Shown piece after piece: positions 1 to 1,291 of a DNA stretch of 56,555 nt. Both the position numbers and the translations under genes were made by a program. Numbering within the stretch: position 1 is the stretch's first letter; every line of letters starts with the position of its first letter. Location of the stretch: contig PWNK01000060.1 of NCBI GenBank assembly GCA_003557865.1, positions 1-56,555 on the forward strand. The letters run 5' to 3'. The notes under the pieces were generated by a model. It made no database searches. It worked only from the letters and a program-made list of their open reading frames with translations, and was not told the origin of the DNA. Origin of the DNA: Desulfonatronovibrio sp. (GTDB lineage Bacteria; Desulfobacterota; Desulfovibrionia; Desulfovibrionales; Desulfonatronovibrionaceae).

Positions 1-640
1 CTGGGCAGAAATCCAGTCCCTGAAGGTCCAGGTTGCCACCCTGACCGGCAGGCTTGACGCACTGGACAGGCAGCACTTGGCGGACAGAGAAGGACGCAGG
101 GAAGCTGATCAGGCCCTCAAAGAGCTCAGAACCAGGGCTGAGAGGCTTGACCGGTCGGTACAGATGATGGCTTCCCAGCTGGGAGTGGAGATCGCCGAGG
201 CAGAAAGGGCTGAAAAGGACGATCCTGCGCCTGCCGGGGAGATGCCCCATATTTCCGCTGATGCGGATTCTGCACAGGTTCTTTACCAGCGGGCCCTGGA
301 TTCATTTTACGAAAGAAATTATCAGCTGGCCCAGGCTTTGTGGGAGGAGTTCGCGGACAACTTTCCAGACCATGCCCTGACTGCCAATGCCTATTTCTGG
401 CAGGGGGAAAGTTATTATCAGATGCAGAACTATGCCCAGGCGGTCCTGGCTTACCAGGAGGTTATAACCAGGTTCCCTGACAGCAATAAGCTGAGCGCCA
501 GCCTGCTCAAGCAGGGCATGTCCTTTTATCTGCTAGGCCGCCAGGAGGCTGGAAAGCTGGTACTGACTGAGCTTCTGGAAAAATTTCCCGACACGGCCGA
601 GGCCAGGCGGGCCAGAGCTGTTATGGCTGAGCACCAATAA
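1..640 (+). CDS. cpoB: Tol-Pal system protein YbgF/CpoB-like, C-terminal part (5' end outside the window)
   Basis: Coiled-coil N-terminal part, then TPR-like repeats (ALYQRALDSFYERNYQLAQALWEEFADNFPDHALTANAYFWQGESYYQ) ending at 640. Frame is open upstream of 77 to the window edge. Confidence 0.8.
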   Translation, partial: WAEIQSLKVQVATLTGRLDALDRQHLADREGRREADQALKELRTRAERLDRSVQMMASQLGVEIAEAERAEKDDPAPAGEMPHISADADSAQVLYQRALDSFYERNYQLAQALWEEFADNFPDHALTANAYFWQGESYYQMQNYAQAVLAYQEVITRFPDSNKLSASLLKQGMSFYLLGRQEAGKLVLTELLEKFPDTAEARRARAVMAEHQ

Positions 641-682: not shown

Positions 683-852
683 CAATAGGTTGGGAGCATT
701 ACGCGTTTCTGAAAACTCAACTGGGGACAGTCCCGAAGCCAGGGACAGTCCCCGTGCCAAGCCGTCATAATCGTGTTTTAACCCCAAAATAGCAATGACA
801 TACAACTCAAATTTATAGTTTTCAGAAACGCGTAATGCTCCCTCAATAGGTT
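683..852. mobile_element. MITE-like non-autonomous element with terminal inverted repeats and target-site duplication
   Basis: 26-bp perfect inverted repeats GGGAGCATTACGCGTTTCTGAAAACT (692-717) and its reverse complement (817-842), flanked by direct repeats CAATAGGTT (683-691 and 844-852). No ORF of transposase size inside. Confidence 0.75.
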
Positions 853-856
853 TGTA

Positions 857-1291
857 ATGGTTTCATCAAAACAGTACTCCAAGATCATTTCCTTGCATTT
901 TTCACCCGATGTAGTACGGCGGCCCATGATGTACAATCTGGCCAAGCAGTTTGATCTGACCTTCAATATTCTCAAGGCCAGGATCAGCCCCAGGGAAGAA
1001 GGGCACATGACCCTGGAGCTTTCGGGAAAAGAGGAAGACTATAAAAAGGGTATATCCTATCTCCAGGAGCACGGGATCAGCATTCAGGATGTTGCCCAGT
1101 CCATTACCAGGGATGAGGAGTCATGTACCCATTGTGGTCTGTGTACAGCTCTGTGCCTGGTCAGGGCTCTCTGGCTGGATGAAGAAAGCAGAAAGGTCCT
1201 GTTTGACAACAACAAGTGCACGGCCTGCAGCATGTGTACCAGGGTTTGTCCTGTGGGAGCCATGAATTCCGAAGCCAACGGCGATTTTTAG
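857..1291 (+). CDS. NIL domain / 2[4Fe-4S] ferredoxin protein
   Basis: N-terminal NIL-like domain; C-terminal CTHCGLCTALC and CTACSMCTRVCP clusters. Confidence 0.85.
   Translation: MVSSKQYSKIISLHFSPDVVRRPMMYNLAKQFDLTFNILKARISPREEGHMTLELSGKEEDYKKGISYLQEHGISIQDVAQSITRDEESCTHCGLCTALCLVRALWLDEESRKVLFDNNKCTACSMCTRVCPVGAMNSEANGDF

Follow-up and report, generated by a model that had tools for sequence, protein, structure and literature searches.

A MITE with ISKra4-type ends and a duplicated target site in the gap separating ybgF-like and NIL-ferredoxin genes

Elements with Mutator-like transposases, those of the ISKra4 group included, have been described to carry ends of 18-39 bp with a conserved terminal residue and to cause target duplications of 8-9 bp (PMC3942029). 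Within the ISKra4 group, four elements have additional genes of unknown function and some members insert upstream of sigma-A promoters, while the word MITE does not occur in the paper concerned (PMC3942029). Our literature search likewise found no paper describing a MITE family of the ISKra4/Mutator-like group. The locus described here lies at the start of a 56,555-nucleotide stretch (positions 1-56,555 of contig PWNK01000060.1, further referred to as the window), where a first-pass annotation had proposed a MITE with target-site duplication next to a ferredoxin gene (Table 1).

Recomputation confirmed the proposed perfect terminal repeats: both arms are reverse complements of each other over all 26 bp (GGGAGCATTACGCGTTTCTGAAAACT), with the match ending at base 27, and the chance expectation for such an arm pair within 200 bp in the window is about 2.5e-9 (rough estimate). 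The flanking repeat was also found as annotated, with one extra T on the right, and can be read as 9 bp (CAATAGGTT) plus one base, or as 10 bp with one change (GCAATAGGTT / TCAATAGGTT). Since the ends of other copies correspond to GGGAGC...GCTCCC, T843 falls outside of the element. The absence of a transposase-sized ORF was borne out as well, with none in the ORF list within positions 692-842, and with only two minus-strand ORFs of at least 60 aa (90 and 76 aa, both running out of the element) touching it. An Rfam scan of positions 1-2400 of the window matched no described RNA family at E<=1.

Table 1. Features of the element and of its surroundings in the window.
Feature	Positions	Strand	Basis
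MITE, non-autonomous ISKra4-type, 151 bp	692..842	+	multi-copy, conserved ends, 8/9-bp duplications, no coding capacity
Left terminal inverted repeat, 26 bp	692..717	+	exact inverse of 817-842; outer 19 bp identical to left end of ISKra4+DruA IS in L183-L185
Right terminal inverted repeat, 26 bp	817..842	-	exact inverse of 692-717
Target-site duplication CAATAGGTT, 9 bp, left copy	683..691	.	direct repeat and target-duplication statistics
Target-site duplication CAATAGGTT, right copy	844..852	.	one extra T at 843 before it
Internal hairpin, two GGGACAGTCCC palindromes with GAAGCCA between	723..753	+	filler conserved among Desulfonatronospira-type copies
NIL-domain [4Fe-4S] ferredoxin gene, 144 aa, ATG at 857	857..1291	+	domain match; orthologs in 17/17 other family members searched
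YbgF/CpoB-like (tol-pal) TPR gene	77..640	+	TIGR02795 above cut-off; ORF as listed, start putative

When the window's own genome (G000) was searched with positions 683-852, the element was encountered at seven places, i.e., as five complete copies (contigs C122, C111, C154, C163, and C170) and two copies cut by contig ends (C168 and C29), as commonly happens to repeats in assemblies. The copies on C111, C154, and C163 were flanked by perfect 8-bp duplications of different sequence (GTCAGTAT, ACCGCCAG, and ATGATGAA), and the one on C170 by a decayed duplication. In the congener G003, the 19-bp end yielded 108 forward and 107 reverse matches at up to 3 mismatches (215 in total, corresponding to about 100 copies), with 0 matches for a reversed-pattern control. 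The end was matched 24 times in G006 and 4 times in G009, and the same search gave 0 matches in G001 and G002. Multiple copies with common terminal repeats and different 8-9 bp duplications, as anticipated by the first-pass annotation, are thus present in both the own genome and G003. More broadly, the element or same-ended cousins occur in Desulfonatronospira, Desulfonatronum, Desulfobulbaceae, and Desulfobacteraceae MAGs. Exact 17-mer matches in Firmicutes, Kluyvera, Planctomycetes, and others were single ends without a second end that probably arose by chance, and were left out of the analysis.

The G003 copies were studied as a sample of about 60 regions, not as an exhaustive catalogue. 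Scored matching of the flanks of 77 copy candidates returned a duplication of 8 bp in 33 cases and of 9 bp in 13, next to one of 7 bp and one of 10 bp. Perfect 8/9-bp duplications were found for 35 of the 77 true flank pairs vs. 4 of 5852 mismatched flank pairs, the observed fraction being conservative because a few candidates pair the same ends in alternative ways. Moreover, one copy (L138:460-657, contig C42 of G003) is situated inside the GGGACAGTCCC unit of another copy and is bordered by the duplication GTCCCGAAG from the GGGACAGTCCCGAAG filler, and therefore provides direct evidence of the element jumping. The target duplications thus show the constant length and variable sequence of a MITE. 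The insertions are also strongly biased to non-coding sites, as only 4 of 40 duplicated sites lay in a frame open for 300 nt, vs. 49-68% of random positions (49% for controls from G003 loci and the window, 68% for controls from the window). This bias shows that intergenic DNA is either targeted or where copies survive, both of which fit.

Between the arms, the Desulfonatronospira copies have the filler GGGGACAGTCCCGAAGCCAGGGACAGTCCCCGTGCCAAGCC in common, with one or two palindromic units in nearly all of them and three in L050; most GGGACAGTCCC sites in the window's genome are located inside MITEs. A larger form of 182-184 bp occurs in G003, where CTCCGGGCTGTAAGCCTCCGGGCAGGAAGC, a second repeat module, is inserted in the filler (e.g., L129, L131, L137, L140, L143, and L199). 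A further repeat, resembling GTGCCACATGCAA..GGC.TAAACT.TTACAAAT, was observed in the flank of the C170 copy and in L210. Separately, Desulfonatronum and Desulfovibrionales hosts contain cousin MITEs of 262-273 bp (L031, L041, L046, L053, L060, and L102) with the same ends, other filler, and 8-9 bp duplications. In the arms, 23 substitutions were common to both arms of the same copy, vs. a mean of 3.0 and a maximum of 11 in 2000 shufflings. The copies with such substitutions were C163, C170, L030, L037, L138, L143, and L204, with most substitutions stemming from the diverged lineages C163, C170, L030, and L204. Restricting the count to near-consensus copies left 3 both-arm substitutions vs. 0.4 by shuffling (p 0.005). 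Such paired changes could mean either that the arms co-evolve with diverging transposases or that the two arms of a hairpin correct each other.

The gene starting at the downstream ATG indeed encodes the NIL-ferredoxin named by the first-pass annotation. Of the 17 relatives, 16 have the ybgF-like gene adjoining the ferredoxin gene, and the element separates the two at 0 of 17 orthologous loci in the family; in G011, neither a ybgF match nor an element match anywhere in the genome was found. Absence of the element was read from the upstream sequence for plus-strand orthologs and for the congeners G001 and G004, and from short gene spacing in tblastn coordinates at the other, minus-strand, loci. 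Conservation of the element at this locus in relatives, which had been named as an argument against a mobile element, was therefore not observed. The hoped-for empty site was recovered in part, in that orthologous loci are element-free, but an empty site with identical flanks was not found among the 17 relatives, whose orthologous intergenic regions have diverged. As a separate observation, G003 carries a shortened MITE of 113 bp about 1.2 kb upstream of its orthologous ferredoxin gene (L228:153-265; C1:125606-125718), which is a different insertion from that in the window.

The element ends 14 nt before the ATG, so that the insertion alters whatever lies farther upstream than these 14 nt. The first-pass annotation had suggested that the right-hand duplication provides the AGG that could serve as ribosome-binding site of the ferredoxin gene, and that expression may have been reshaped by the insertion. 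The proposal on the ribosome-binding site fails, because the duplicated target leaves the ATG-proximal copy in place and because the congener G004, which is element-free here, has the same AGG. More specifically, the reconstructed empty site reads CCGCAATAGGTTTGTAATGG, and the right duplication preserves the ATG-adjacent sequence exactly. G004 in turn reads ...CAGCAGGTTTGTAATGG where the window has TCAATAGGTTTGTAATGG, with an AGG before the ATG without insertion, and AGGTTTGTAATGG is also present in the element-free congener. If the MITE has a local effect at all, this would likely lie in a highly stable hairpin within transcripts that read through from ybgF into the ferredoxin gene, and the element does not by itself alter the view of the latter.

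To trace the enzyme that moved the element, the ORFs at loci with its ends were inspected. In Desulfurivibrio sp. SURF_16 (L091, 4470-6776), two such ends 2307 bp apart enclose an ORF with a DruA domain (PF14236) and an ISKra4 transposase whose frame is disrupted. ISKra4 pieces were likewise found beside such an end in L082 (1-1933) and L054, with an N-terminal piece in L096, and the order of DruA followed by ISKra4 adjoins the same ends in L091 and L082. A transposase search in 395 genomes of the phylum subsequently revealed an intact relative (87% identity) in another Desulfobacterota genome (G468), as part of an insertion sequence (IS) of 2406-2415 bp that is present in three copies (L183-L185). 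Its left end (GGGAGCATTACGCGTTTCT) is identical to the outer 19 bases of the MITE and its right end is GGGTGCATTACGCGTTTCT, with perfect 8-bp duplications (TATTCGTG and ATATAATC) bordering two of the three copies. The first ORF of this IS encodes a 313-aa PF14236 DruA protein, and its 472-aa transposase scores 246.7 bits with the ISKra4 profile (vs. a cut-off of 205). The match between MITE and IS is confined to these outer 19 bp, with unrelated interiors. DruA matches from G003 (L292) and G006 (L293) lacked a flanking pair of such ends; viral contigs yielded no relative of the transposase, and plasmids only distant ISKra4 relatives of less than 60% identity. The nearer relative G009 carries a 2786-bp DruA+ISKra4 IS (L290, contig C1) with a 9-bp duplication and different ends (GGGTGCGGCTCTTTT), and was rejected as the partner of the MITE on account of those ends. 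The two-gene arrangement therefore recurs, with lineage-specific ends, and in L183-L185, L091, L082, and L290 alike the DruA-domain gene stands immediately before that of the ISKra4 transposase.

Based on the matching ends and the duplication length, we infer that the MITE most likely owes its movement to an ISKra4 (prokaryotic Mutator-like) transposase. Two ends recognised by the transposase around a short, non-coding filler would constitute the MITE, and an ISKra4-family DDE transposase (p-MULT 4) acting in trans would have inserted it in the gap between the ybgF-like and the NIL-ferredoxin gene. Cutting of the target with an 8-9 bp stagger and joining to the element would then have duplicated CAATAGGTT. 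We consider this explanation as a whole, including an unchanged ribosome-binding site, to be very likely. The autonomous IS with the same ends that the first-pass annotation had called for was recovered in G468, as far as the outer 19 bp are concerned, but not in G000 or G003. Profile and protein searches detected no ISKra4 transposase in either G000 (87% completeness) or G003 (97%), so that the MITE appears to be an orphan in both. Presumably, an IS of the G468 type mobilised the Desulfonatronospira copies and has since disappeared from G000 and G003, or is not covered by their assemblies. The 4.8-Mb genome of G003 is a case in point, with about 100 MITE copies and an engine that is missing, lost, or unrecognised.

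The absence of an ISKra4 transposase in G000 and G003 despite the many copies in the latter might also point to a transposase of another family that recognises similar GGGAGC ends, produces 8-9 bp duplications, and still resides in Desulfonatronospira unrecognised by our searches, the more so as ISLre2 and ISH6 relatives likewise give duplications of 8-9 bp (PMC3942029). We regard such a mover as unlikely, given that, of all elements found with these ends, only the ISKra4+DruA copies in L183-L185 are both complete and coding, and that four further loci (L091, L082, L054, and L096) have ISKra4 pieces beside such an end.

Less likely still is that the insertion is more than tolerated and has been recruited to regulate the ferredoxin gene, through promoter or RNA hairpin control. 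The short distance between element and ATG, the promoter targeting by some ISKra4-group elements (PMC3942029), and the very stable RNA fold of the element (-73.1 kcal/mol, z -10.6) would fit such a role. This stability is, however, explained by the inverted repeats alone. Moreover, the ribosome-binding site is the same with and without insertion, and the orthologs manage without the element. The sole promoter-like match inside the element (742-771, 9/12 bases) is at the level of shuffled sequence, and in a simple consensus scan of 80 junctions, promoter-like -35 sites were not enriched at the published distance of 10-19 bp (2 in this bin), and hence gave no signal of promoter targeting.

Finally, it is hardly credible that the element belongs to the palindromic REP/REPIN repeats, with a RAYT (Y1 tyrosine transposase) as its mover and the GGGACAGTCCC units as REP. 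The interior does hold such palindromic units, and Y1-type transposase genes are present in these genomes. The frequent 8-9 bp target duplications, which Y1-type mobility is not expected to give, nevertheless refute this origin for the whole element. No Y1/RAYT link emerged for the filler either, with GGGAC(A/T)GTCCC occurring only twice in 89 kb of sequence surrounding 30 Y1 transposase loci and with most GGGACAGTCCC sites of the window's genome lying within MITEs.

Returning to the reading of an ISKra4-mobilised insertion, it is well supported that the window element is a genuine MITE, flanked by an equally genuine target duplication, and that it is ordinary in kind. The proposal of the first-pass annotation in this respect stands, given the multiple copies with differing 8-9 bp duplications, the IS with the same outer ends, and the element-free orthologous sites. 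The family is not named in the papers searched and is most likely mobilised by ISKra4. More tentatively, it might be an undescribed ISKra4-derived MITE family that spans several Desulfobacterota lineages, reaches about 100 copies in one Desulfonatronospira without detectable parent IS, has co-evolving arms, and descends from a parent IS with a DruA accessory gene; this combination is possible, though we would not yet favor it. The domain in question (PF14236) is that of the Druantia protein DruA, from a family known from the Druantia phage-defence system. DruA homologs may have accessory roles in transposition in addition to those in defence, and if so, a protein family known from phage defence would be part of a transposition module, which bears on annotating Druantia from DruA alone. 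The ISKra4/Mutator-like group would in addition gain a clear high-copy MITE family, tied to a two-gene IS that encodes a DruA-domain protein. In annotation, the family accounts for many intergenic GGGAGCATTACGCGTTT and GGGACAGTCCC repeats in Desulfonatronospira and relatives, and for contig breaks there.

Compared to known systems, the element resembles bacterial MITEs in general, such as MITEAba12 from Acinetobacter (PMC6382973) or the MITE of P. gingivalis that has a minisatellite in its interior (PMC4596501), in being short, non-coding, multi-copy, and bordered by inverted repeats and a target duplication, but it differs from these in its ends and sequence and in its internal GGGACAGTCCC palindromes. 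With REP/REPIN sequences and their RAYT transposases, as described in PMC2817692 and PMC3733652, it shares a palindromic nature, an intergenic location, and a high copy number, whereas it gives target duplications and lacks an association with RAYT-type genes. Unlike the ISKra4 group (p-MULT 4; NCBIfam NF033572; PMC3942029), the window element encodes no transposase and has an unrelated interior, and its family shows no sign of inserting upstream of sigma-A promoters, as some members reportedly do, so that it is at most an ISKra4 derivative and not an ISKra4 IS. It nevertheless matches this group in its 26-bp ends (within the range of 18-39 bp), its terminal GGG, and its direct repeats of 8-9 bp, and the ISKra4+DruA IS in having the same outer 19 bp.
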